Shown here: positions 23,901 to 63,551 of the stretch, one piece after another | Numbering within the stretch: position 1 is the first letter of the stretch | Layout: each line of letters starts with the position of its first letter | From: Siphonodentalium dalli | Lineage: Eukaryota > Mollusca > Scaphopoda > Gadilida > Siphonodentaliidae | Assembly: GCA_032622095.1 (NCBI GenBank) | Contig: CP136062.1 | Span: 56,027,849 to 56,091,848 of the forward strand | Direction: 5' to 3' | DNA: 64,000 nucleotides | Position numbers and translations under genes: made by a program | The notes under the pieces: model-generated | Told to the model about the DNA's origin: nothing | What the model saw: the letters and a program-made list of their open reading frames with translations, nothing else | Databases searched by the model: none

Positions 23901-26900
23901 GTTCGAATAATAATATTTTTGTGAAAAAGTGCGATTTTTCAGCAAAAAATATATATTGTGGCTCAAAATGGCAGGAAAATCTAAATTAACCAACACCTTT
24001 TTTCATATCAGGTAGAAGTATTGCATGATTTAGTAATTTTAACCCCAACAATATGGGCAAATAGGCTAGGACATAGCCACAGGGCTCGCTTTACCAAAAT
24101 CGTTAATTTCTGGAAAAAGTCACTGGAGGGTATCGCTCATCGTCGATTTGACAATAGCCACCACCTATTCCGTTATTTTTCAATTTCTGTCAAATTCTTT
24201 CTACTTGTGTTGTCCAGATAACTACTGAGCCATATGTTATATAGTTGGTCACGTTGTTTATAACAAAGGTTTTAGTACTTAACATCGATGTTAATGCATG
24301 CAAAATTAACTGTTATCAATAAAATAATTGTTGTAACTGGGGGTCTGAAAGCCTGAACACATCTGTAATCGATTAAACGGCATCTCTGGACAACACTTTC
24401 AGTACAATATTCATATTGGGTCCCATTCAGATCAATTAAAAAATGTTTGTAATGACATAAAAAATATGTATTTTTTTCGACCAAAAACGTGTTTGGGGGA
24501 GGGGTAGCTAAAATCCAATATCTCGCAAACCGTTCAAAATTGTTGTTAACTTCTTCCTTCATATGCTTGTTAGATAACTAATACACCATATGACCTAAAT
24601 ATTTCAATATTATTGCAATATACGTTTCAATGATAATGTTCGAAAAATAATTTGTTTTTGAAAAGAGTGATTTTTCAATAAAAATTAAATGTTTCGGCTC
24701 CAAATGGCACGAAAATCCAAACTAACCAACACTTCTTGCATATCAGGTACAAATATGGTATGCTGTAGTCATTTTAACACCAACAATGTGGGCAAATAAC
24801 TTAGGACATAGCCGCAGGGCTCACTTAACAAAATCGTTAATTTCTGGGAAAAGTCACTGGTGGGTATCGTTCATCGTCAATTTGAGAATAGCCACCACCA
24901 ATTCCGTTATTTTTCACTATCATTTTCGTACAGAGTATATATTTCTCCTTCAAATAAAGTTAGTTTTAACTTGTTCTACCGTGGGTAGGGGTATCTCGAA
25001 AACTAGAGCTCTTTTTCGATTTGGCCGCTGCACTATTTATCGCCCGACAGTGCGACACTATGGACATACCTATGTGATGGATGATTGCATGTTCGTCAAA
25101 TGACTTGACATAGCTGGAATTGGCTTCATTTAAAATACACTTTGATGTTTTCGGAATCACATAATTAATGGAAATGTACAGGTGGAGAAATGTCTGGGAG
25201 GGAAATGTCCAGTTGTGGAAATTTTGGGGTGTGGAAATGTCCAGGGAGGGAAATGTCTTGGTGGGGAAATGTTCAGGTGGGGTATCCAAGGAGGGTAATG
25301 GCCTCATTGTCCTGGTGGAGAAATGTCCAGTGGGGAAATGTCCGGGTGCATATCCATGGAGGGAATGTCCTGGTGGAGAAATGTCAAGTGGGGAAATGTC
25401 CGGGTGGAAATGTCTGTGTGGAGTAATACCCGGGAGGGAAATGTATGTTGGGATCTGTTCGGTGGGGAAATGTCTTGGTGGTGGAAATGTCCGGGATGGG
25501 AAATGTCTGGGGTGGATAATGGCCAGGGCTGGAAATGTCCGGGTGGGGAAATGCCTGGGTGGGAAATGTCTGATACCCTGATGCATATATGTCATGTTCT
25601 TCATGTGAGACTGTTGTTTTTCGTTTTGTGATCCGGCTAAGCCTTTCTCTTTATCTTTTTTTTAAGGAGAGCATTAACAGAACAACAAGAAGTTGCTGTT
25701 GATATGCGGACAGTTATAACGGCCAATGATGAAATATTCATACTCAGGCAGTTTGGTATGTAAGATTTTATATAAATTCCATTTTGAGTGATGTGTTGTG
25801 TGAGGTAGAGGGGTAATGTCGCAGGAGCTATACTCGACCTTCACCCCATAATTGGCAGTCACGTTATATTCAACTAATTAACGGATCTCTTTCGGGTGGT
25901 TTTTAAAACACCACAGTGAGTAGAACATCTTGATATATAGGTCAAATTGCACATGCGGAGTGGGTGGAGTTTATTTGAGATTATAGATGCATGCCCTACG
26001 AGTATACTGTTAAATATTTATGCAAATAAATGCTTACGAAACACATATTTGAAAAAGCTATGGAAGGCGTTCATTGTCGGGACAGCTATGTCTTCCATAG
26101 CAGATGAGGCCATGCAGAATGAGGGTCCCATAGGGTGAATTTAGTGAAGCTAGCCTACTGCAAATGAAAGGTACACTAATCTCAGGCTTGTTAGAATTCA
26201 AGCCTTGAAATAGTGTGTCTGTCATTTGCAGAATGAGGTCCCCAGAGGGCGAATTTAGTGATGCTATACCACATAGCGGGCTAGCATCACCAAATTCACC
26301 TTCTGGGAACCTCATTCTGCTGAGGCGTAAGCAGAATGAGGTCCCCAGAGGGTGAATTTGGTGATGCTAGCCCACTATGTGGGGTAGCATCACTAAATTA
26401 ACCCTCTGGGGACCTCATTCTGCAAATGACAGACACTATTTCAAGGCTTGTTACCATTAACACCAAGAAGAACATAAATAATAGAAAGAATCTTTCTTAT
26501 ATCTCATTATCAATAACTCTCCAGTGACAAGATTACGCATGTTGAAATCATATACACAGGCAGTCAGTAATGTTTACGTTATATGCAAAGAACAATAACA
26601 CTAAAATACAGATATTATTGATTATGATCAGTTGCGGTGTGCTGTGTATTTCCTCATTAAATTATTTGCAGCAGCAACGGCAGCACTCAAGTCACCTTAT
26701 ATTATTTCTTGGTATAAACAAAAAGAAAACATCACTTGTAGCACTTTACATAAATGTTGTGGCATGTACATGTAGCTTAATTAGTCAAATTTGGACAAAC
26801 CGAGAAGCAGATATGTTTCTAGGTTATACATGTATATACTGATATGGTATTCGCACAAGTAATTATCTGTTACTTGATCGGTGAAATTTCAATAACCTAC

Positions 26901-53900: not shown

Positions 53901-56900
53901 TTTTTTTCCGGTGTTGTCCACCTTATTGTCAGAAGTTTGGTTCGACTGCCAAAAAACTCGACAAAATCATCTTAGATGCGTACCCCTTGTTTTACTTATT
54001 ACCTGAACATTTTACTCTAATATATAGGACTCTTTCTGCACTTTTATTATCTGTCGTCTGCTTATATTACCTGTACATTCCTGCATTTCAATAAATGACT
54101 ATTCCGATGTACACTTTTTAACTTACTGGGAGAATCCATTTAGTATAGAAAGGGTTAAACTAAGGTCATATTACAAATACAGTGTAACCCGAATTATTTT
54201 TAGGGTGGAAATTTGAGACAATGGTTACAGAAACACGACTATGAGGTATGGCTGACCAATGAGGTGAGCACATGGGATAACGATTTGCTAACCACACCCA
54301 TGTCACAGGAATGTGGTGAGTTGATTATTGTCCCCGACATACTGTTGAGGACTATAGTAATGACCCTCGTCCATCCGTCTGTAGCTTTGTCCGAGACTGT
54401 AGTTTTTAATTTTATGTCAATTTTGTTAAACTTGGCACATATATCAAACTGATAAATTTCCAATTAGTCCAATAAGATACCAAAGTTTAATCAAAACATC
54501 ACATTAAAGTGATGTGAAACACTCCGATTGGGTGTTCAAATAGAAATGGAGAATAATCTTGCTCAAAGTAGTTATTTTTATGAATATTAATCCAAATTTA
54601 CAGCACACATCGTCATTCTTATATATTAATACAATGCATTGACTCTCGATGGCGAAATCATTTGCGTTAGTTTATCCAATTGTTGCATCCCGAATCGAGA
54701 TGTAAATATTTACAATGAAGCGTAGTTCAGACGGTGATATCTATGTAGTGGTATGGTCCATTTCTTTGAGATTTTCGGTGATGTTTAGTAGAATGCTACA
54801 TTCCCACAGTCGGCACAGCACATGAGTACTATTTTATTAGTTTCACGCCCCCGAGCAAGTCTATAATATGTCTTTAAACATTTGTCCAGTCATGTTTTAT
54901 AGAATTGTGGCACTATTAATAAGTGGCTTGAGTATGGCTTGAAGTTGACTATACAAGGGTATAGTGCCCAGTGGGGTGGGTATAGTTCATGACGACGAAG
55001 TGGAGCGAACTATAGCCACCCCACTGGGCACTATACCCACGTAGTCAACGACAAGAAATGCTCTATTTATTATATTTCACCGAACAATTCAAACTTGTAG
55101 CATGCATACTACATATAACTATATCCTACCAGCATGCCCCAACTGCCCCAAATTCCATTTATAAGACGCTAAAAGAAATCATGTACAACTCGTTTTACTG
55201 AGAACAAATACACTGTATGATTATTAACTTTCCTGACAAGTTTAACCCTTTCATTGCCAAGTCCGATTTTTGTATCAACCCATATTTCCTTGATCATTTT
55301 TCAAATTTATTGATTATAACATTATCACATTATTATAATCAATAAATTTGAAAAATGATCAAGGAAATATGGGTTGATACAAAAATCGGACTTGGTACTG
55401 AAAGGGTTAAGAGAAACACAATCATGGCAAGAATGTGTTGAAATAAAGTTCTGTAAACCGAAACGTGCACGAAAACCCGAAAATGTATTACAAGGTCAAT
55501 TCAACTGAATGTTGCCACTTCGCAAGATGACGTCGTTCCTGTGAAAACAGTGTTCGCAGTAATGTTTTAATTTCATTTGGACATGCCTTAGTAAATTGGT
55601 GGACACATATATGTATATATGTTTTCGAGATTGTTGCTTCTGTTCATAGCTTTTTGCATGCTATAGTGTGGTCGTCAGATGATTCGACCCGGAAGAAATC
55701 GGTATAGAAGCGATTTTGGTATCATTAGAAGCGGGAGAATCTCCAGTATTACATATCCAAAATCCGCTAAAATCCGCTTTGGGCAAAATTCACAATCCAA
55801 TATGGCGTCCAACATGGCCGACACACTCTGAAACCCATAGTATGGCCGTTATGCGCAAATTGGCACTGCATTATGCAGGATTTAAAGGCGAGTATACACC
55901 ATGAATTGAACTCCACATTCCAAGGTATAATTTGGGCCGTAAATACGTTCCAGAAATGAAGATGGCTACCAAAATGGCCGCCAAAACTGATAAACATACA
56001 GCTCGACTTAAATTCAAGCTGAACCAACATTGTGTTATTTTGAATCGCTGGAAGAAGGTAGTATAACCAAACAAGATAGAGGAACTTCTCCACCAATGTA
56101 TTATCTTTCATTCTAAACTTTGTATGGTACCATAAGTGACTTCTGCAAACAGAGCTGAGCACCGGAGTGGTATGATTTGAAAGGTAATCGGTACGGACGG
56201 CATCCAATCAACTAACACAAAGCATCCGGTTTTGAAGTTTGATTCCGACCCAAATAGTAACCTAGAGCACCAATAATGAAATTAAGATGTTACTCAGCCA
56301 AAGGCTCAACATCAACTTCATCATCTCCGACAATAATAGCTTCTGAATTTCTGCAGCCTTCACCATGACAGTCACCACAGGCTACAACACATTTGAGTCC
56401 ATTTTTTCTACAGGAACACAAATTAGCACCGCACAGATTTCTACTAGCCAGCTTGCATTTGCAGCGTACGAATTTTAATAGTGTTTCTGGTGCAGGAGCC
56501 AGGTCGGTCATAATGGGAACTAAATGAGAATCCTGAATTTGCCATCCCCAATCAGTTGGGTCCATAGTAGTGTTCCCCAGGGTTTTCCAGATAACCACTT
56601 GCAAATGCACACGTAAGCTATGGAAATAAGCCGCTCGTTCTGTTGGTGGTAATTTATGTGGATCTAAGGAGCCTCTTGTCGAGGATACCATTTCCATAAA
56701 TTTTGTGTACCGCAAACCATTGAGGGTGTCACTCTGCTTTCCAGCATATAACGTCTTGAACAGTTTGACTCCAGCCTCGCCAACTTTATTTTTGTCAGCA
56801 GTGGTATCGTTCATAATGGATGATATCCGCTGTATTTCGGGGGACTCGATCTTTTTTAAGATGCCGGTTTTGCCCTGGCCATATGTAGCAGATGTTGTAT

Positions 56901-59900
56901 CACACCCGGCCCAGGCATGGATAAAGAGAATATGCGCCGTTTTTACTTTGCCGGCCTTCTGCACAAGATCTCGTATTTTCCATTTGGCTCTGCCACCCTT
57001 GACTGTCTTTCGTGCTTCTGAAACAAAATAAACATCTGCCATGTCTTCAACCCAATGGTACAAGAGAAGAATTAGCAGATCCGTATCATCTGCAGCCATA
57101 ATAACATCCGTCCCTCGAGATGCAAACTCAAGGGCGGACGACACTATCATCGTATCTGCATCACCACTGCTGTTGCGTACCATTTGTCCATCAGCTATCA
57201 GCAATCGCCCCAACAGTTTGATAAACTGAGTTTTGTTTTTCTCATTTGATAAATATGCCTCCTGATTATAGTGTGCCTCCACATTCTCAGATAAACGAAT
57301 ATCGGCACAACACTTTCCGATTCGTCTACTGTGCTCGTGGTCCTTGATGGCCGGACCAATTTCATAACCATCGAAAACAATGCAAGCATTTGCGTACTTG
57401 GATCGAACATAGCAGACGTATTGGTTAGCAATTTAAATGTAAGTGGATTTTTTTGCCCACTTGACACGATGCAACAGAGCCCCACCGTCAACAACATGCA
57501 TAGTGACAGATGGGAGGTTTGTCTGCTCAGAATAATCAGTGAGAGCCTTAGCCAAATGCGTTTTAGTTGGCTTTCTCATTAAATTGTCCTTAAACAGTGA
57601 TGTGGGTGCTGCAGTTAGTTCATATTTAAAATATGTTGCCATATTCTCCTCTCGCTGTGCAATAGCTATCAACCATGAGAAGAGAATTGTCAGGTTAATG
57701 TGCACTTTTTTATTATCTATCTTAACTCCCGGCTGCAGACTGTCCAGTGCTTTGACATGTTCGCTCTTTTTTATGGACACTACAGCAACACTCAATCCAA
57801 CTATCTTTTCTTGTATTCCCATACCCACTATTTCTGTCTGATCGCAGTTCACACCGTCACCATCTGCAGCCGTGAGGCCAGACGATAGGGAACGCAACTT
57901 GGTTTCGTTCATATCGAATGGCTCATGGTCAGCGAACCTCTGCTCGAGCTTCAACAGATCGTTGTAATCTCGAATTCTTCTTGAGGTACCCAGTTCAATA
58001 TGCTGCTCGCTAGTATTGTGTTTGGCGCATGTCAAGGTTGTCATTGATTCGTGTATTTCAGCACACTTGTGCATACTGAATACCCACTGCTGGCGGCCAG
58101 AATCTGTCATACCCCTCCCCCTTGTCAGACCACCTCTACTCTTAATCGACCTCATTAGGACCTGTTCTATGATCAAATCAGTCGACAGACCTGCCCAAAA
58201 CCTGCTACTTCTACGAACAGTGTGGAAACCATGCTCTGCAAATGACTTATACAACACCGGATGAGTCAACGGTAGCTCAATCATCAGCTGGAGATAGAGG
58301 CGGCAGCTTTTCGCATAATGTATGTGTCCTGTGGCAGCAAAGAGATTTAACATCTTTCCTGTCGTGAGGAGATGTAAGTGCCAATCTCCTGTCCTCTCAG
58401 CTCGTATGAAATCTTTTAAAGTTTGTACATAAATAACATACTGCAGCCATAGTCTTGCCGTTGGTGATTTCTCTGCAAGCAATGTTTTGTACTCAGCCAA
58501 ACACTGTTCGAGCTTGATAAATTCGTCTGGAAGAGCATCACCTGGAAAATGTATGTTTCTTTCTTCAACATCATCAAACAATGTTCTAAGTGTCTCAGTT
58601 TCCACTGTGCTTAGTCCAGGTAATTGCTCATTCGTAGTCGGACAATGTTCACATGCTTCATTTTCTGGGGAAGATATGTAATCTTCGTCCTTGCGTTGTG
58701 TCGACGTATGCGGCTGGTCAGATTCTGGTTGGTCTGTGTCAATAATTGTAAAATGAGACGATGGTACCACTTCTCTTACTAACTTGTTGACCAGGACCGC
58801 TTCTACTAGGAAATGAACACGTAAAGCTCTTGAGATTGCTTTACCAGAGACCATTTGCTGAACTGCATTTGGGCCATAGACCCTTTCTAATGCCTCTTCC
58901 AGCCCAGAGCCTTTCATCATTGCACCAATGCTTCCCAAAAAGCTCATCATGACATGAAAGCCACCGAGTCTACAGACTACATTCATAGACCGCGAAGTGA
59001 TTATTCCAACCGCCTTGAGCCACAGGGGCTGATCAAATGTCAAGCAAGGGGTCGAGATATTTAATTTGTTGGCCTGACTATGGATGAAAACCAATGTCAA
59101 ATAGATACAGTCTTCATCCGATGGATTCAAATCAATTATCGGCAAAAACACAACTTCCGATTTCTTGGAAGGACCACTGCCAGAATCAGCGAATATATGC
59201 TGCATATAACCTGTCCAATTGGGTCGAGGTTTAATCGCGTTTCTGAATAGCCACCCAGAATGCCAGAGCAAATCTGAATTCATATCGGGGGGCAATGTAT
59301 GGGGGAACTGTAATTGAATAAGAGGTTTGTATGCAATTGTTGATAGACCCTTCTCTGGACAGCTGGCATACTGATGAATAGGTATCCCTTTGTCTTTGAC
59401 TATGTTATCAACATTAGCACGTTTTTGTCTAATGACTACTTGTGGCTCCGGGCGGAGTGGCGAATCGTCTGTTGGGGTGCACACGGCAATTATTCCCATC
59501 CCATGAAATGTCCCATGACCATCTAGAGTAGCAACATTATGGTCAACATTATCTGCGACCCACTGCGTGAAGGAGCCAGGGAAATATTCACTTGGAAGAC
59601 TTTCATGATCATGGGCCTGAATTACTGACTGTTTGTACCTTTCAACTTCGTCATATGTGATCGAAAAGCCTAACCGAGATAGTTCTGTCACAAGCCATTT
59701 AGATCCAAACATATGATCAAGTTCAACGCCAAGGCCAAATAGAGTTGGTGCCAGCACTGATTTTGGTCTTGCGGATTGAATTATAGAATGTCCTATACTG
59801 ATCTGCTTCAATTCCGAAGGGATCAGGACTTCCAGCAGACATAACATATGTGATGGTATCCAGCCCTTTCCTCTTTCAATGTTGGTTATTTCCTCGCTTG

Positions 59901-62900
59901 TAGGGTATGAATTAGTAGTATACATCATCTCCCTCAGTTGTGCTCGAATAATCTTAGCTGCTGTCATAATTATTCTCTTGTGTTCTTCTTCAATGTCAGT
60001 TTTCTTATCGGTGTACCACTTCTCGTTGATAATAAAGCTAGCCATGTTTCTGAAGCAAATCACGTTGCTCCTACCCTGGACTTCGGCAAAGAATATGTAT
60101 GACCCATAGTGATCCTGTAGTTTTTCTTTCAACCATTTTTGTGTATAAACTTCCGACCCCTCAGCGAATTCTACCATCTTATCATGAAGTTCAGATAGCG
60201 TATACAGCTCCGCACCAGCTTCCGACTCAATCCATACACATACCTTTTGAAACAGTTTTTGCCTTGAATTGTCTGTTTTTCTGCCAATCTGTTTACGTTC
60301 AGATGGATTCGGGCTTATCTCCTTGTTCAACTTAAAACGGGACAAACATATGCTATGGTAGACAGCTTCAGCTGCAACCAGATCGATACAACCATTAAGC
60401 CTTTTCTGGACCTCAAAACTTATCGAATCCCCCCTTTCTGCACAACAATCTAATAGACTCTCACGCATTGGGAGTGTTGAACATCGATGCACTTGTGTTC
60501 TGTCAGTATGTTTGGGGTCAAACGGGGCTGCCTTCCCACAAAACAGACAGTCCTCTTTGTAATTGAAATCTGGCAGACTTGACCGGAGCCTCTTTGTAGA
60601 TGACAGATCAACAGAATCTGAGCTCTCACACAAACCTCTCTTGCTGTCTGTGAAATTCCGACGGCAAATTTGGTGTACCAAAACTTTCCCTATGGGTGTT
60701 GTATTGAGTCAACGATTTAGATATCGGGCCAGCTCCAGCTTACCCCTGTTTCTCAGCGAAATAAATGAGAGTCAGTATGCCTTTCCTAGAAACATTGACT
60801 GCCGGATCATCTTCAAAACCAAGCTTACAGTCAATACAGTGATCTTCAGAAATATAACTAATATCCGATGATGCTTTCTCGTCTGCCATAGCTACTAATA
60901 ATACGATGCGATAAATTCAATAATGGAGCATAGAATATCAAAAATATATATTGCAGTATAACGATCTCACTGAGATACCCTCATCAATGAGAATCTTTTA
61001 TCAAACAGGTCTCAAGCGTGCGTTGTCACCGTTAGGTTTCAGCAAGAGATCTGAATTCGTAAAACAACTGCTATATACTACATTCAAATGTTTTCCGTGA
61101 CAAATTGACTTGCAGAAGCTATATATCTGACGCACGTGCTCGCAGAGTCTGAATAATAAAGCGCGTTTCGTGTATAGCGATATCAGAACGCTAAGACAAT
61201 AAAGAGCGTCTATACAAAGCCCAAGACAATAAAGAGCGCAACTTGCGCTAAATTATCTGATGAATACGGGGACAACAATCTGTTACGTGCATTTTATGCA
61301 GACCATAGTATATGGTATAAGTAATAGAACATATATTAATATTCAATAATATATGTGTCAAAATATCATGAACGATGTGTAGGCCTATCAATATTTTTTA
61401 TAAACGCTCTTTATTGTCGACGCTATACTTTTTCCCGCAGCCAACGTATCACACGATCATGTGTATTACGTATCCCGAATTATTTCCGACTATTAGCTTC
61501 CAAGATATGTCTGATTTGGGCCGTCAATCTGATTATGTTAGCTGAGACGTGAGGCATATCCGATATGAACACAAGAAAGGAGGTCCCTATTTCAACATGC
61601 GATAAAAAAATTTGCCCAAAGCGGATTTTAGCAGATTTTGGATATATTATACTAGAGATCCTACTGAGTCGAATGACACCAAAATCGCTTCTATACCAAT
61701 TTCTTCTGGGTTGACCCCTTTTTTTGCGTACCACGACCACAGTACTAGTTTGGTATAGCAGTGTGCTAAATTTAGCATGATATTATACAAGTATAGTGGT
61801 TTGCTAAATTTAGCTCTACTACACAATATAGAACCCAGCTTTCAACTAATTAGAAGGTGCCATTTCTGTGTGATGTGAAACATAGAATGTTCAGTGCATT
61901 CACCTATGTGTATGTAAATATTAACTTCTAATCGCTGTATCTTAGGCCTGACTGAGACATCTCTTGAATTAAGCTACCTCAATGAGAAGCCACCTTTGCT
62001 GGGTAATGCAGTGTCTTTTAGACCAAAGAAAGTTGATATCTTGCAAGCCTTGTAATAGTATGTCTGTTATTTGCAGAATGAGGTCCCCAGAAGGTGAATT
62101 TAGTGATGCTATCCTGCACAGCAGTCTAGCATGACCAAATTCACCCTCTGGTGACCTCATTCTGATTAGGCCTCATCTTCTGGGAAGTATGTAAAGTATC
62201 AAAATAACATTTTTTTTAGTTACTTCTGTTCGGTTTCTATATCCTCTAATTTGCAGAATATAAAATGCATAATCGAGGTGACTAATGGGTGAATTTCACA
62301 ACTTCAACTGGGGAACTTCAATCTGATCCTTGGGACATATTATATTATATATTATTTGTCCGTCAAGCCATTCGTTTGTCTAGTCGTTTGCTTTTTTCGT
62401 TTCCGGATGATAACTTTAGTAAGTCTGTACTGAATGGAATGAAATTTGGCATGTGGGTTTGCTAGCCAAATATACAGGTCAAGTTTTAATTTGGGTTCCA
62501 CACGCCAATTGTCACAAGAGTTATTACCCTTTGTTGAAATTACCATGGGCCTATTTTGCCATTCCCTAGCGATGCTCTTGTTTATAAAACAAATCTTGAA
62601 AATCATGATGAAAACTTTAGGGTAAGTTTAAAATTAGGTCGGTAAGGAAACCCGAACCAAATTGTTTTCTTCGGTCTTATGTGAACTATTTCTTTATTTT
62701 AGTGTTTAGTCAGTTTGAAATGAACGGTGACGATGACAGTCGAGATGTCAAAGAGAAACAATTGTTCCAGGAGAAGGCTGATGAAGCAAGCGTAATTTTA
62801 GCTGTCATCTCTACGTCATTCTCAAAATCAACAACATGCAAACAACAGGTTTGTACTATATCACTTTAACCCTTCCATGAGGCTCATGACGGGAGCTGTG

Positions 62901-63551
62901 CTGGTGCAGCATTAAAGATCCTGTGCATTCTCTTATATATGCGAGTCTCCCATAGGGATCCTCGCATATATAAGAGAATGCACTGGCTTACAAGGTCAAG
63001 GTAAATATTGTTAGGCCAATGTATACCGTATATATAAGAGTATGCATTGGCACATGGTTTTCGCAATATTTCTGGAAGCTCCTTCATGAGTTATGGCCCT
63101 TGTTCTATTTATAGGAATTTTATGGCCGTTTGCGTGATAACTTGAATGTCAACTGATTCCATTCATATTTCATGTATGGATATTTTACAAGTTATGATCA
63201 TTTTTAAAAACCAGATTTGTCCAATTTTGATCACCTGAGTTATGGCCCCTAGTTTGTCTACATTCCCCTCAAAATGTACGTTACACACTGAGCTGCATGG
63301 TATATCCCTTTTTATTCATAATTCTATTCATCTATGAGACACCCTAATTCATATCTATTATTTATATAAAACAAGCTTGCTGGGAAGAGATTGATAAATG
63401 TTGTATGATAAGAGAGACAGTCTTCAATAATCTTATTTTCTCTTCACAGTTATTTTATTGTGAAAACAGAAAGCGGGTGCTCTTTCTGAAGTATGACGAC
63501 TTTAAGATTCCTGGCTGGATGAAAATGCTGGTTGGAAGCAGTTCTATTGAG
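17797..63551 (+). CDS. Multi-exon gene for a double-TIR-domain protein (extends beyond window)
   Basis: Eleven exons with GT-AG borders assemble to about 530 codons: 17797-17987, 25667-25755, 30342-30541, 32813-33008, 36032-36157, 42170-42305, 50445-50617, 52284-52412, 54204-54315, 62703-62848 and 63450-63551. Exons 1-3 (~160 residues) show no family I recognise. Exons 4-6 encode a TIR domain (KQILVSYCRAESAQ, GYSVYLDVHEIKSGFDWQDS, IPLVTPRYGETQWTNRE, ILPISFLDEW). Exons 8-11 encode a second, diverged TIR (PLILVCLHPDQREL, DYEVWLTNEVSTWDND, ASVILAVISTSFSKSTTC, RVLFLKYDDF). TIR domains act in innate immune adaptor signalling or, as in SARM1, as NAD+ hydrolases; which applies here is inference. All junction phases agree except exon 2/3. 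Exon 11 ends at a donor, so the C-terminus lies beyond the window, and 5' exons may be missing. Confidence 0.88.
17996..18450. mobile_element. MITE family B half-copy split by a TTAA element
   Basis: gtaatgccctaattaatcga (17998) is continued after the insertion by ccacagcagaattatgggta (18404). Intact copies read these two pieces contiguously across ccttaaccacagc. The inserted piece is 18028-18399. Confidence 0.85.
18028..18399. mobile_element. piggyBac-type MITE, TTAA target, nested in family B
   Basis: The ends ccctttacccaacag and ctgttggg-type ttttgttgggtaaaggg are inverted and flanked by TTAA at 18024-18027 and 18400-18403. Inside lies a second module with two gccaatgcattctcttatat palindromes (about 18048-18255), also found at 27103-27473 with other ends. 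Non-coding, 372 bp. Confidence 0.85.
18480..19090. repeat. Old dispersed repeat, interrupted copy (related to 63740-64000)
   Basis: aactcaactattgttggaaa and actgaatac... before the inserted element, and acatcatcttcgagttttta through taaatactacgattctc after it, match 63820-64000, where they are contiguous. The repeat hosts the TA element 18608-18982. Confidence 0.85.
18608..18982. mobile_element. 375-bp TA-target MITE with GC-rich interior
   Basis: The ends are ccccgctggacaaaacaagt and, inverted, ccctgctggacaaaacaagt, flanked by TA at 18606-18607 and 18983-18984. The interior is an imperfect minisatellite of ggccgaacggcaagtacac units in both orientations. The paralogous repeat at the right edge carries a single TA at the same place, giving an empty-site control. 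Confidence 0.9.
19232..19349. mobile_element. TTAA MITE family C, short copy
   Basis: TTAA at 19228-19231 and 19350-19353 brackets ccctgacagtgccaagtccg ... agctgaaaggg. Intact relatives are at 29363-29569, 42694-42880 and 55246-55406; this copy lacks most of the second arm. Confidence 0.8.
19446..24991. mobile_element. 5.5-kb long-TIR element with internal satellite
   Basis: The outer arms (about 19446-20240 and 24205-24991) are inverted copies of ~790 bp, from cccctacccacggtagaaca inward past gatctgaatgggacccc/gggtcccattcagatc and ccagttacaacaacaacaa. TA flanks both ends (19444-19445, 24992-24993). A second, diverged copy of the right arm lies inside at about 23590-24200, and a partial one at 20240-20520, so the termini are themselves repeated. 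The centre (20.6-22.9 kb) is a degenerate ~190-bp array. No transposase is seen, so it is non-autonomous. It lies in intron 1 of the TIR gene. Confidence 0.85.
20600..22860. repeat. Degenerate ~190-bp tandem array (about 11 units)
   Basis: A block resembling cactttacaaaaagcggctggcaaa recurs near 20765, 20950, 21152, 21358, 21535, 21738, 21920, 22097, 22290, 22490 and 22676, spaced 177-206 bp. The intervening text cycles through ccatttgaagtcttgaacac, tgttaactgaagttgtgg and ggatgggttggttcccgaaa. A further, almost exact fragment of one unit (near 21783) reappears at about 23238-23310, outside the array. Non-coding. Confidence 0.85.
25000..25164. other. Short gene-free spacer
   Basis: Sequence between the long-TIR element and the G-rich minisatellite. 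Nothing recognised. Confidence 0.4.
25165..25585. repeat. G-rich minisatellite upstream of exon 2
   Basis: About 420 bp of units like ggtggggaaatgtccgg (roughly 16-19 bp), G-rich on the transcribed gene's coding strand. It ends 80 bp before the exon 2 acceptor. Its long open frames on both strands are repeat artefacts. Confidence 0.88.
25667..25755 (+). CDS. TIR-protein gene, exon 2
   Basis: Encodes RALTEQQEVAVDMRTVITAN then DEIFILRQF. The acceptor tcttttttttaag and the donor TTTG|gtatgtaag are both strong. Its first base completes the Arg codon from exon 1. It leaves one base of a codon, which does not match the zero-phase start of exon 3, so a small exon may be missing between them. Confidence 0.78.
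26100..26456. mobile_element. MITE family A, dumbbell-shaped copy
   Basis: The outer arms aagccttgaaatagtgtgtc / gacactatttcaaggcttg enclose two inner palindromes, each gcagaatgaggtccccagag ... cctcattctgc. A further partial copy precedes it (26104-26180). In intron 2. Confidence 0.85.
26457..27059. other. Gene-free intronic stretch
   Basis: AT-rich. The short open frames show no domain or splice support. Nothing recognised. Confidence 0.45.
27060..27516. mobile_element. 457-bp nested MITE (outer and inner elements)
   Basis: The outer inverted ends are gtgacccgccatatcaaaac and its partner gttttgatatggcaggtcac. Inside, 27103-27473 is a second element with ends ccctgtgccaatgcattctc, bracketed by ttttta and taaaaa and holding two palindromes around tatgcgagtcgacc and tatgcgaggcgacc. 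The same inner module occurs within the TTAA element at 18028-18399 and, diverged, at 62915-63060. Confidence 0.82.
27517..28000. other. Gene-free intronic stretch
   Basis: AT-rich sequence with no recognised exon or element end. Confidence 0.4.
28000..28300. repeat. Fragment related to the ~160-bp array at 36.5-37.3 kb
   Basis: tttggtatggatgttcacta with ctatgaggacattcaatgga and ttcatctttgtttatctgga recur in the tandem array at 36560-37330. About two units are present here. Confidence 0.7.
28455..28642. mobile_element. MITE family B, 188-bp copy
   Basis: Near-perfect foldback with ends cagtaatgccctaagtaatc, flanked by TA (28453-28454, 28643-28644). Landmarks are gaattatgggtaacttttca and ggatttagtcggaaatatgg. 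One arm has lost about 25 bp next to the loop compared with the 213-bp copies. Confidence 0.87.
29363..29569. mobile_element. TTAA MITE family C, 207 bp
   Basis: TTAA (29359-29362 and 29570-29573) flanks the foldback ccctttcagtgccaagtccg ... cggacttggcattgaaaggg, with an agagctctttcc-type centre. The CCCTTT ends and TTAA target are piggyBac-like. In intron 2. Confidence 0.88.
29710..29900. mobile_element. MITE family B, broken copy with tandem 33-mer
   Basis: The left arm cagtaatgctctaagtaatt runs through the centre gctctccccgagagctttcc. After gatgaatggcaacaag the right arm is replaced by two tandem copies of gcgcatgcacacaagtgcat. The right terminus is lost. Confidence 0.8.
30342..30541 (+). 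CDS. TIR-protein gene, exon 3
   Basis: Encodes FCWPFDFEFLDSNGWTVTQD and on to SSGPKSKKP, an acidic then basic, probably flexible linker ahead of the TIR. The acceptor tgtttttacag is strong and the donor is CCAAG|gtatgtcc. It starts in phase 0, which does not fit exon 2. A weaker acceptor at 30323-30324 (gattttgag) would add 17 bases and restore the frame; otherwise an exon is missing. Confidence 0.75.
31042..31192. mobile_element. MITE family B, 151-bp copy
   Basis: Foldback from cagtaatgtcctaaataatc, TA-flanked (31040-31041, 31193-31194). It lacks the gttgccattcatcggaaagc segment in both arms, a symmetrical shortening about the hairpin tip. Confidence 0.82.
31193..32000. other. Gene-free intronic stretch with an inverted pair
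   Basis: gtgggcttctaaaacatcgtac (31235-31256) recurs inverted at about 31749-31776. Otherwise nothing is recognised, and no exon is supported. Confidence 0.45.
32008..32720. mobile_element. MITE family A cluster
   Basis: A dumbbell copy (32008-32245) is followed by single and degenerate copies at about 32285-32400, with the cctcaattatgaaatttatc/gggatatagaaacttcccag arm to 32580, and at 32585-32715. It lies in the intron ending at exon 4. The inner palindromes contain gcagaatgaggtccccagag ... ctctggggacctcattctgc. Confidence 0.83.
32813..33008 (+). CDS. TIR-protein gene, exon 4 (start of TIR-A)
   Basis: Encodes a ~30-residue linker (LEELPSLTRDDSSFSHGLPD) and then KQILVSYCRAESAQHALNL and LSKLGYSVYL. 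These are strand A, helix A and strand B of a TIR domain. The acceptor is tttttgtcttacag, and the donor CTG|gtatgt follows a complete codon. Confidence 0.9.
33009..35557. other. Intron 4, gene-free part
   Basis: AT-rich; the open frames of 60-124 codons here have no splice or domain support. Some short poly-T and gttgttgttgtaac tracts occur (35010). Nothing else was recognised until the family-B MITE at 35560. Confidence 0.45.
35560..35771. mobile_element. MITE family B, 212-bp copy
   Basis: Complete foldback, TA-flanked (35558-35559, 35772-35773), with the tip around ggaaagctcttactgagagc. In intron 4. Confidence 0.87.
36032..36157 (+). CDS. TIR-protein gene, exon 5 (TIR-A core)
   Basis: Encodes DVHEIKSGFDWQDSLNYAVS and EVFIPLVTPRYGETQWTNRE: the BB-loop region, helix B, strand C and the following segment. 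By eye, the final Glu (codon 36155-36157, the last of the exon) aligns with SARM1 Glu642 in its WVHKE motif, the NADase catalytic residue. The acceptor is cacattttcag; the donor is GAG|gtaggt. Both junctions are phase 0. Confidence 0.9.
36510..37340. repeat. ~160-bp tandem array (4-5 units)
   Basis: Units contain gatatctccaccaccagttg, ggtatggattttcactacta and attcatctttgtttatctg. The array starts after a poly-C run (36511-36524) and ctcgacgtgaatgggggaat, and a related unit pair lies at 28000-28300. Non-coding. Confidence 0.8.
37711..37923. mobile_element. MITE family B, 213-bp copy
   Basis: Complete foldback cagtaatgccctaagtaatc ... ttagagcctttctg, TA-flanked (37709-37710, 37924-37925). In intron 5. 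Confidence 0.87.
37928..38066. repeat. Foldback repeat next to family B
   Basis: attgcattggttcgaggttg and gacatgaggatttat recur inverted as gataattcctcatgttaacc and ttgtaataatgcaat. Probably another MITE; target duplication unread. Confidence 0.6.
38067..40254. other. Intron 5, gene-free part
   Basis: AT-rich with A/T homopolymers (38529, 38640, 39188). At 38370-38450 a tcgaatcgaatatcgacatc tract resembles a hAT-type terminus but has no visible partner. No exon supported. Confidence 0.45.
40255..40875. repeat. Dispersed repeat with taccccccgcaacgaag start
   Basis: It begins tataccccccgcaacgaagt and ends ggggggtatccgtagtccca with gggacagtcacacctctagt. Inside are two to three tandem ~140-bp units (gtccgagcttttattcctac, cgattatgacgtctgtc). 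Non-coding. Confidence 0.7.
40930..41142. mobile_element. MITE family B, 213-bp copy
   Basis: Complete foldback with ends cagtaatgctctaagttatc, TA-flanked (40928-40929, 41143-41144). In intron 5. Confidence 0.87.
41515..41612. repeat. Imperfect inverted repeat
   Basis: gagatttgtcacccgctcga pairs with tcgagcaggtgacaaagctc about 60 bp away. Short foldback of unknown origin. Confidence 0.5.
41829..42083. mobile_element. MITE family A, complete dumbbell copy
   Basis: Symmetrical: caagccttgaaatagtgtgt outer arm, two inner palindromes joined by ctgaggcctaagca, then acacactatttcaaggcttg. It ends about 86 bp before the exon 6 acceptor. It is the best copy for defining the family. Confidence 0.88.
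42170..42305 (+). CDS. TIR-protein gene, exon 6 (end of TIR-A)
   Basis: Encodes VKLADVLGKSILPISFLDEW and LAIQFATTQYICWK, the helix-C, strand-D and C-terminal part of the TIR; GKSILPI matches the GKNIVPI region of SARM1. The acceptor is atatgtctgcag. The donor ACAG|gtaacc leaves one base of a codon, completed by exon 7. Confidence 0.9.
42694..42880. mobile_element. TTAA MITE family C, 187 bp
   Basis: TTAA at 42690-42693 and 42881-42884 flanks ccctttcagtgccaagtcct ... cggacttggcactgaaaggg. The left arm lacks about 20 bp near the tip. In intron 6. Confidence 0.87.
43290..45330. repeat. ~160-bp tandem array with alternating monomer types (~13 units)
   Basis: gaaatttgtcatgaatgttg-like blocks recur about every 155-166 bp (43339, 43494, 43660, 43820, 43976, 44140, 44296, 44458, 44614, 44779). 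Two monomer types alternate for much of its length: one with ttcaatccattggcgcgggc and ctgttcgtctgatcatcat, the other with ctaaatcctttggcgcgggc and cctttggtctgatcttta. This gives a ~320-bp higher-order period. Each monomer has catggccgccagcagccatc. Non-coding. Confidence 0.87.
45535..45625. mobile_element. MITE family A fragment
   Basis: gacatttgcagaatgaggtc and cccagagggg followed by cctcatcttctctggaaagt; truncated and without the second arm. Confidence 0.65.
45633..48440. repeat. Composite repeat with ~143-bp array
   Basis: It starts actagcagggttacccggcg and ends with acagacagacagacattcgc and tatagatatagatta near 48440. Units containing tcatggggatgattatata and agtttggtggcaatcggcga recur near 47352, 47498, 47642, 47789, 47925, 48072 and 48210. 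Start motif, array and cagacagaca tail mirror the layout of the 1.7-11.2 kb repeat, although the sequences differ. Intron 6, non-coding. Confidence 0.75.
48441..50385. mobile_element. MITE family A copy split by a 1.7-kb TA element
   Basis: The left part (48441-48618, ending gtgatgctagccc) and right part (50314-50385, gcgtcactaaattcaccc) together form one family-A unit interrupted by 48621-50311. Confidence 0.82.
48621..50311. mobile_element. 1.7-kb non-autonomous TA-target element
   Basis: Inverted ends of >110 bp (gtccagtgcatttatgagaa; inverted partner gtccagtgcatttatggttt) include gctggaataagtacata and ataaacaacatactaaaaat. They are flanked by TA at 48619-48620 and 50312-50313. The inner region has further inverted tracts (48746 versus 49600) and no long open frame. 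Confidence 0.83.
50445..50617 (+). CDS. TIR-protein gene, exon 7 (inter-TIR linker)
   Basis: Encodes EAAEGCGASSKDISIWDEKY and NYVANAIDERMKALLRRRDE, then a polar tail to LNKR. It probably includes a C-terminal helix of TIR-A and a flexible linker. The acceptor is ctatttttcag. The donor AAAAGG|gtgttt is less canonical. The phases agree with exons 6 and 8. Confidence 0.8.
50733..51108. mobile_element. hAT-type MITE with 8-bp target duplication
   Basis: The ends are taaggctgcaacgat and taggcctgcaacgat (inverted). GTGGCTAT occurs immediately outside at 50725-50732 and 51109-51116, the 8-bp duplication of hAT transposases. The interior is rich in gtatcgcgatac/cgatacatgtatcg motifs. Non-coding, 376 bp, intron 7. 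Confidence 0.87.
51109..51860. other. Gene-free intronic stretch
   Basis: Contains repeated tagccacataa motifs (51480-51560) and an AT-rich tract. No exon seen. Confidence 0.4.
51865..52145. repeat. Direct repeats of ~75/155 bp before exon 8
   Basis: gatgtttttacagactttta with actgactgcgagtgctttgg occurs near 51868 and 52010, and diverged units with cacatttacctgctgcttgt lie between. Non-coding, about 140 bp upstream of the exon 8 acceptor. Confidence 0.75.
52284..52412 (+). CDS. TIR-protein gene, exon 8 (start of TIR-B)
   Basis: Encodes KTVVRSYALKIDDDILEQSC and AVPEDREGKPLILVCLHPDQ, then REL. PLILVCLHPDQREL resembles strand A and the following loop of a TIR. The acceptor is tttctttgcatag and the donor TTG|gtaagt is consensus. 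The donor region is tandemly repeated downstream; a second in-frame donor 30 bp later would add VSLHPDQREL. Confidence 0.85.
52387..52470. repeat. 30-bp tandem repeat spanning the exon 8 splice donor
   Basis: gtctgcatcccgatcaacga and gaattggtaa (30 bp) occurs at 52387 and 52417, then a decayed third copy at 52447 ending caatgagaac. Two intact gtaagt donors therefore exist (52413 and 52443). Confidence 0.92.
52471..52760. mobile_element. MITE family A, diverged copy
   Basis: ccttgaaataatgtgtctgt and gcagaatgg are followed directly by ttctggggacctcattctgc, so the first palindrome has collapsed. Then comes the arm with ataatcgaggtgactaatgg and ggtctcccatagcag. Intron 8. Confidence 0.75.
53250..53970. 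repeat. Element with gtcgagttttt ends and ~160-bp units
   Basis: tagtcgagtttttcaag near 53257 and ccaaaaaactcgacaaaatc near 53950 are inverted. Between them units with cgataactcaatcaaatatt, tttggtatatgagactcttg and tttgtccgaatttttt recur about every 160 bp (53513, 53672, 53834). A 142-codon open frame here follows the repeat and is not supported. Intron 8. Confidence 0.7.
54204..54315 (+). CDS. TIR-protein gene, exon 9 (TIR-B)
   Basis: Encodes GGNLRQWLQKHDYEVWLTNE and VSTWDNDLLTTPMSQEC: helix A, strand B and the BB-loop region of a diverged TIR. The acceptor is attatttttag. The donor TGTG|gtgagt leaves one base, completed by exon 10. Confidence 0.85.
54316..54945. other. Gene-free intronic stretch
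   Basis: Ordinary AT-rich intron sequence; nothing recognised. Confidence 0.4.
54950..55052. repeat. ~100-bp foldback
   Basis: gttgactatacaagggtata and gtgcccagtggggtggg pair with ccaccccactgggcactata and cccacgtagtcaac. The loop is around cgacgaagtgg. A MITE-like palindrome of a family not otherwise seen in this window. Confidence 0.7.
55246..55406. mobile_element. TTAA MITE family C, 161 bp
   Basis: TTAA at 55242-55245 and 55407-55410 flanks ccctttcattgccaagtccg ... cggacttggtactgaaaggg. The tip is shortened symmetrically. In intron 9, just outside the FEN/CXC element. Confidence 0.87.
55666..55790. repeat. Left terminal inverted repeat of the FEN/CXC element
   Basis: Contains gaagaaatcggtatagaagc and ccgctaaaatccgctttggg, matching the reverse complement of 61613-61742 with scattered substitutions and a short length difference near the outer end. 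Confidence 0.85.
56350..56481 (-). other. TSO1/tesmin-like CXC motif
   Basis: VRCKCKLASRNLCGANLCSC followed by RKNGLKCVVACGDCHGEGCR. The C-x-C ... C-x4-C-x-C ... C-x3-C-x2-C spacing is that of one CXC zinc-binding repeat, which contacts AT-rich DNA in tesmin/LIN54-type proteins. It could direct binding to the AT-rich element ends. Confidence 0.8.
56870..57500 (-). other. FEN1/XPG-like nuclease domain within the element gene
   Basis: Codons checked on the minus strand: D1065 at 57487-57489, D1104 at 57370-57372, D1261 at 56899-56901. GDADTMI plays the part of FEN1 EAEAQCA, AADDTDLLIL that of the EDSDLL segment, and FIHAWAGCDTTSATYGQGKT that of the LLGCD...GIGPK (helix-three-turn-helix) segment. 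The stop at 57433 falls between the first two acidic motifs, so this copy cannot make the whole domain without readthrough. Confidence 0.85.
61613..61742. repeat. Right terminal inverted repeat of the FEN/CXC element
   Basis: Contains cccaaagcggattttagcag and cgcttctataccaatttctt, the inverted partner of 55666-55790. Confidence 0.85.
61745..62040. other. Gene-free intronic stretch
   Basis: Includes two gctaaatttagc palindromes (61768, 61801). No exon seen. Confidence 0.45.
62045..62340. mobile_element. MITE family A copy
   Basis: aagccttgtaatagtatgtc, gcagaatgaggtccccagaa, foldback to ctctggtgacctcattctga, then the arm with ataatcgaggtgactaatgg. Intron 9, between the FEN/CXC element and exon 10. 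Confidence 0.8.
62341..62702. other. End of intron 9
   Basis: Contains a gtccgtcaagccattcgttt tract and gtttataaaacaaatcttg. The exon 10 acceptor follows (tctttattttag). No other feature. Confidence 0.45.
62703..62848 (+). CDS. TIR-protein gene, exon 10 (TIR-B)
   Basis: Encodes VFSQFEMNGDDDSRDVKEKQ, LFQEKADEASVILAVISTSF and SKSTTCKQQ. The ASVILAVIS strand followed by TSFSKSTTCK matches TIR strand C and the segment leading to the catalytic-Glu position. The residue expected to be Glu is Gln here. The phase joins exon 9 (one plus two bases) and exon 11 (zero). Confidence 0.87.
62915..63060. repeat. Palindromic module D, diverged copy
   Basis: gcattctcttatatatgcga and inverted ctcgcatatataagagaatg, then gttaggccaatgtatacc ... 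aagagtatgcattggcacat. Same double-palindrome layout as 27103-27473. It lies just after exon 10. Confidence 0.75.
63061..63449. other. Intron 10 remainder
   Basis: A unit resembling the 53.5-kb array (gagttatggcccttgttcta, ccagatttgtccaattttga), otherwise nothing recognised. Confidence 0.45.
63450..63551 (+). CDS. TIR-protein gene, exon 11 (last in window)
   Basis: Encodes LFYCENRKRVLFLKYDDFKI and PGWMKMLVGSSSIE. RVLFLKYDDF matches the strand-D segment (IVPII in SARM1). The acceptor is tctcttcacag. The donor GAG|gtaaat at 63552 shows the gene continues past the window. Confidence 0.87.

Follow-up and report, generated by a model that had tools for sequence, protein, structure and literature searches.

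The window analysed here, a stretch of 64,000 nucleotides from the scaphopod mollusc Siphonodentalium dalli (contig CP136062.1, positions 56,027,849 to 56,091,848), contains a transposon with terminal inverted repeats (TIRs) that occupies 6,081 bp at 55664-61744 and carries its gene on the minus strand. It is likely, in our view, that this is a transposon of the Academ/AcademX type, encoding one protein (about 1,500 amino acids in open copies) in which an N-terminal zinc-finger-like part is followed by a DDE core, a Rad2-type nuclease and a CXC domain. The original prediction had recognised the inverted ends, the nuclease and the CXC motif, and had regarded the nuclease as cargo of the element; it is instead part of the same polypeptide as the transposase and lies, in the full-length relative P0004, some 1,090 residues into the chain.

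Two putative active sites on one chain

The gene of the window copy is read from the following stretches:
60709..60889, minus strand, N-terminal coding stretch with ATG at 60889 (by-eye comparison with relative P0001)
57433..60708, minus strand, main open frame of 1091 amino acids with the zinc-finger-like N-terminus, the DDE core and the start of the nuclease (open reading frame list and protein search)
56290..57432, minus strand, continuation of 380 amino acids in the same frame with the remaining nuclease domain and the CXC domain (open reading frame list)

The long antisense frame reported earlier is present as the latter two stretches. The main frame stops at an in-frame TAA (57433-57435) beyond which the reading frame is unchanged; a frameshift as the cause of this split is ruled out. 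The stretch 60709-60889 resembles the N-termini of relatives, but a frame change together with a TGA interrupts it. With this break and the in-frame TAA, the window copy is damaged. An uninterrupted frame of 1,510 codons was found only in copy L009 among the 13 copies measured (window included), the 12 copies other than that of the window, L009 included, being 97.5-98.5% identical to the window copy.

A search of 5.8 billion proteins returned 233 relatives, 120 of which were listed, at 35-59% identity; conservation was counted on 80 of these with a length of at least 1,240 amino acids. The features of the C-terminal part are as follows:
56557..57567, minus strand, Rad2/EXO1/FEN1-type nuclease domain, model residues 52-388 (predicted structure)
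57487..57489, minus strand, aspartate equivalent to FEN1 D34 (alignment, conservation)
57370..57372, minus strand, aspartate equivalent to FEN1 D86, in FDGY (alignment, conservation)
57154..57162, minus strand, D-A-D equivalent to FEN1 E158/E160, codons 57160-57162 and 57154-57156 (alignment, conservation)
57079..57087, minus strand, D-T-D equivalent to FEN1 D179/D181, codons 57085-57087 and 57079-57081 (alignment, conservation)
56899..56901, minus strand, aspartate equivalent to FEN1 D233, in GCDTTS (alignment, conservation)
56347..56466, minus strand, CXC-type cluster of nine cysteines (sequence pattern)

Because of its predicted fold and its conserved catalytic residues, this part is assigned as a predicted nuclease of the FEN1/XPG superfamily (Rad2 type), and the structure prediction that the earlier reading had asked for agrees with it. 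The structural matches cover the Rad2 fold over about 250 residues, at 10-16% identity in the matches listed. All seven acidic residues placed in order by the original prediction are present, and their conservation goes beyond chance: residues 1110-1330 of P0004 hold 24 acidic positions, of which seven, exactly those equivalent to the FEN1 seven, reach 98% conservation or more in an alignment of 81 rows (window row included, gaps excluded). The catalytic residues are kept in 78-80 of the 80 full-length relatives, and an invariant Lys and an invariant Arg lie 9 and 16 residues past the aspartate that corresponds to D86. The predicted fold, the seven acidic ligands and the Lys/Arg pair seven residues apart are shared with EXO1, FEN1, XPG and GEN1, whereas the Siphonodentalium nuclease is embedded in a transposase of about 1,500 amino acids. 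A sequence-profile search of the PDB found no match; comparison of the nuclease with 44 archaeal FEN1 sequences gave a local P of 0.045 (probability 1.2%) and nothing in global mode, the core giving P 0.33 as negative control; and Pfam XPG_I was detected in one of 26 relatives (E 0.18) and not in the window protein.

The nine cysteines past the nuclease bear out the CXC motif noticed earlier, and the pattern recurs in 40 of the 43 relatives, among the 80 aligned, that extend to the C-terminal part. Those relatives that carry an organism name, among the ones listed, come from the sponge Dysidea avara, the sea cucumber Holothuria leucospilota and the limpet Patella caerulea; two of the three are labelled Tesmin/TSO1-like CXC, a label probably taken from the C-terminal domain.

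Upstream of the nuclease a core of the RNase H type is predicted, and its top structural matches are DDE-type recombinases. Three invariant elements are candidates for its catalytic residues:
59542..59553, minus strand, D-N-x-D in and just past RNase H-like strand 1, candidate first catalytic D (model, conservation)
59032..59034, minus strand, D in FDQP beyond core strand 4, candidate second catalytic D (model, conservation)
58165..58167, minus strand, E in DxxxEQ on the helix past the helical insertion, candidate catalytic E (model, conservation)
This part is described as the putative transposase core, of the DDE type and with a predicted RNase H fold, in which a helical insertion comes ahead of the catalytic E.

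Ends of the element and target duplication

The limits of the element were set by alignment with 18 other two-ended copies from the Siphonodentalium dalli genome (2.23 Gb in 9 contigs searched):
55664..61744, strand not assigned (gene on the minus strand), whole element (comparison with 18 other two-ended copies)
55661..55663, plus strand, left copy of the target-site duplication, CTA (flank comparison)
61745..61747, plus strand, right copy of the target-site duplication, CTA (flank comparison)
55664..55790, plus strand, left TIR, 5'-TAGTGTGGTCGT (repeat search and copy comparison)
61608..61744, minus strand, right TIR (repeat search and copy comparison)

A repeat search in the window detected inverted arms of 107 nt (55684-55790 and 61608-61714) that are 86% complementary, and the comparison of copies extended them to inverted ends of about 127 bp with the tip 5'-TAGTGTGGTCGT. 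The inverted repeat itself had been seen correctly in the original prediction, and its limits (55666 and 61742, about 125 bp) shift outwards by this comparison. The right tip of the window copy reads TACTGTGGTCGT, and TAGTGTGGTCGT in the remaining 18 two-ended copies. At its outer edge the inverted repeat begins with TA; of the 19 two-ended copies (window, L009-L019, L021, L022 and L024-L028), 18 have this dinucleotide at both tips, and L014 has TG at one end.

The flanks of many copies rule out TA as the target duplication, as which it had been taken at both borders: it belongs to the inverted repeat, and the duplication is of 3 bp. An exact 3-bp duplication flanks 14 of the 19 two-ended copies and a 4-bp duplication none of the 19, and the flanks do not match in L014, L015, L017, L018 and L019. 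In the control, 33 of 812 mismatched flank pairs (4%) agreed over 3 bp; this control was built on 29 pairs, 10 of which are spurious in-gene end matches. Three members of more distant families (59% protein identity) have 3-bp duplications as well, TGG in L029 (read by eye) and CTA in L030 and L031 (by script). Left out of the count were L020 and L023, with one end only in the stretch fetched, and L032, a 71% relative whose ends were not found in the stretch fetched.

An empty-site test was made for one copy, L025, whose joined flanks with a single trinucleotide match the 40 places scored across the junction. The four unoccupied sites that were fetched align over 180 of 180 bases free of gaps, and the duplicated CAG reads CAG in two of them, CAA in one and TAG in one. 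L025 sits inside an abundant tandem repeat of about 165 bp (3,663 first-look candidates in the genome; for example contig C4:226384809-226385107), and the empty sites are unoccupied paralogous units of such a repeat, not the pre-insertion locus.

Linkage of gene and ends, and recent movement

Searching the genome by protein (50 matches listed, 42 scored of 3,695 candidates) gave at least 16 main-family loci of 94% or more identity that were found gene-first and represent part of the family. Both ends are present by flank comparison at 11 of the 16 (window, L009-L012, L014-L018 and L021). The other five were examined in 1.2-kb pieces at the expected end regions. Both ends are present at two of these loci, though the right tip is altered or eroded; a single end was found at two more, and the fifth retains just 23 bases from the inner part of an end. 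Gene and both ends thus occur together at 13 of 16 main-family loci, and likewise in L029-L031 of the more distant families. That the gene belongs to a TIR transposon is thereby borne out; the inverted ends bracket it at these 13, and the other three show one end or a remnant only in the stretches fetched, where an end may be concealed by a large indel.

Members of the more distant families also have open frames, an ATG frame of 1,547 amino acids in L031 and 1,575 codons at the L030 locus. Between these two copies the identity is 99.06% across 5,930 bp, a span that comprises the element and its duplications and no further flank, and their flanks differ. It appears that the element group has moved recently.

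A non-autonomous family with the same ends

Six fetched copies (L022 and L024-L028) of a high-copy family are 4.2-4.3 kb long and carry the left end at 92-93%, while the interior is different: blastn at E 1e-5 against the body of the window element gave no match for any of the six. The longest stop-to-stop frame in L025:200-4535 is 154 codons. A search with 1.5 kb of the 4.3-kb interior found at least 40 places at 98% or more, L025 itself included (1,309 first-look candidates). All six copies are flanked by 3-bp duplications. These elements have only the ends in common with the gene-bearing ones, and it would seem that possession of the ends suffices for an element to be mobilised.

Some 700 bp from one end of L025 (L025:3705-3830), and at the matching place in L022, L024 and L026-L028, the terminal repeat occurs a third time, facing inward. 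Identical stretches of 25 bases precede it in all six copies, and it has the look of a duplicated end or of a nested remnant that became fixed.

Classification

CACTA/EnSpm elements, with duplications of 2-3 bp, resemble the present element in this length and in their CACTA/TAGTG tips, but the sense of the tips is opposite here (5'-TAGTG...CACTA-3', with 5' ends of TAGTG or a one-base variant). Tc1/mariner elements are likewise TIR transposons with TA outermost; in the Siphonodentalium element TA is part of the end, and the duplication is of 3 bp, not TA. A Cys8 zinc finger is reportedly described for AcademH; the cysteine feature seen in the present protein is the nine-cysteine CXC cluster.

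The original prediction knew of no named superfamily for proteins of this kind, and here the literature supplies a fitting one. Academ is a DDD/E superfamily (PMC9587614) with 3-bp duplications (PMC5199201). AcademX is described as encoding a nuclease and having 3- or 4-bp duplications, and AcademH as encoding a helicase and having 9-10-bp duplications, and duplication length seems related to the type of enzyme encoded (PMC10045372). In a bivalve library the mean length of Academ elements is 5,565 bp (PMC10294476). Because the nuclease, the 3-bp duplication and the DDD/E core fit these printed traits, the element is probably a new family of AcademX type, Academ being compared by published description only. 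It agrees with that description of AcademX in superfamily, nuclease and duplication. AcademH shares the superfamily by name, but has a helicase and 9-10 bp where the Siphonodentalium element has a nuclease and 3 bp.

Pfam detected no family in the window protein and none above the cut-off in five relatives scanned singly, and NCBIfam none above the cut-off in four relatives. With E values up to 1 allowed, DUF6589 was reported in four of 26 relatives, and the best of these matches is in the transposase core of P0095 (E 1.2e-5, 24.7 bits, cut-off 27); it may represent another branch of the same transposases, and no mention of it was found in the literature searched. Neither the Kyakuja-Dileera-Zisupton (KDZ) domain nor a helicase family was matched by Pfam in the window protein or among the families listed for the 26 relatives (25 of 29), a profile miss being no exclusion in the case of KDZ.

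Possible role of the nuclease and alternative explanations

In DDE transposition the core cuts the 3' ends and transfers them, and the length of the duplication follows from the distance between the two sites of joining; the fate of the 5' strand varies from one such transposon to another. The strands cut by Rad2 nucleases are 5' strands, at flaps, nicks and branches. The DDE core of the present protein would accordingly be expected to cut and join the 3' ends of the element and to insert it with a 3-bp stagger, while the nuclease would work on the 5' strands, either by severing, at each end, the strand that is not transferred, in the manner of TnsA in Tn7, or by trimming 5' donor flaps after strand transfer, and the CXC domain and the N-terminal fingers would bind the ends. 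The relation between duplication length and encoded enzyme in Academ elements points to a role of the nuclease in strand processing, and the simplest assumption is that it processes 5' strands, at excision or after strand transfer. In Tn7, TnsB is the DDE enzyme and TnsA, a separate chain, has a restriction-enzyme-like fold. The two systems have in common that a DDE enzyme for 3' ends is accompanied by an unrelated nuclease, which here may cut 5' strands; the Siphonodentalium nuclease differs in being of the Rad2 type and fused. We tentatively raise the possibility, by analogy, that the element is a one-protein counterpart of TnsA/TnsB in which the DDE core handles the 3' ends and a captured EXO1/FEN1-type nuclease the 5' strands, giving clean, hairpin-free double-strand excision. 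If so, loss of the nuclease would shift the element from cut-and-paste to copy-type products.

The nuclease could also serve other ends, for example by opening the target site, degrading nucleic acid of the host or counteracting silencing, with transposition proceeding without it. The TET/JBP enzyme of fungal transposons is speculated to remove silencing marks (PMC12730594), and extra enzymes in other transposons may thus be accessory; such a role is nevertheless unlikely here, given that the nuclease is fused to the transposase, that its catalytic residues are so widely retained among relatives listed at 35-59% identity, and that the type of enzyme in Academ seems tied to duplication length (PMC10045372). 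That the nuclease alone is catalytic, and that DDE chemistry plays no part in the movement of the element, an action the original prediction had entertained, is very improbable. The nuclease is indeed the better-matched domain, but it is preceded by a predicted RNase H-type core with an invariant D-D-E whose top structural matches are DDE-type recombinases, on which DDE-less transposition is rejected, and the duplication is fixed at 3 bp.

A different kind of doubt concerns the name. A TIR transposon with the same DDE core and Rad2-type nuclease might belong to an unnamed superfamily apart from Academ, as would suit the lack of any Pfam or NCBIfam family above cut-off in the proteins scanned singly, DUF6589 being the only recurring Pfam link and that below the cut-off, and the fact that the fit to Academ comes from published description and not from sequence. 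We regard this as rather improbable, as the traits of Academ as published fit: a DDD/E superfamily, a nuclease lineage, a 3-4-bp duplication and a bivalve mean of 5.6 kb. A last alternative, that inverted repeats of unrelated origin happen to enclose a host gene or a piece of one, would agree with the damaged state of the window copy, yet it is hardly credible when gene and ends occur together at 13 of the 16 loci of the main family as well as in L029-L031, and when L030 and L031 are nearly identical between different flanks. The reading of a transposon of Academ/AcademX type with both domains on one chain is the one retained.

Other features of the window

To the left of the element lies a fold-back (55242-55410) with arms of 78 nt that are 97% complementary and a loop of 13 nt; more fold-backs are found nearby at 54952-55043, 62074-62164 and 62920-62986. 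A frame of 231 codons at 24966-25661 consists of repeated units rich in proline, histidine and phenylalanine (HFPTRTFP-like), and probably reflects the translation of a tandem repeat rather than a gene.

Implications

The type of element is already in print; what is added here, as far as the literature searched shows, is a single chain on which both putative active sites are located, with confident models and strict conservation, together with unoccupied sites for one copy (L025) and signs of recent activity. In our judgement Academ elements are little studied, and the handling of the non-transferred strand by DDE transposases differs by group. Open-framed and recently moved copies, defined ends, unoccupied sites and both active sites on one chain make the role of such an accessory, structure-specific nuclease accessible to experiment, and the element illustrates the incorporation of a repair-type nuclease into a transposase.

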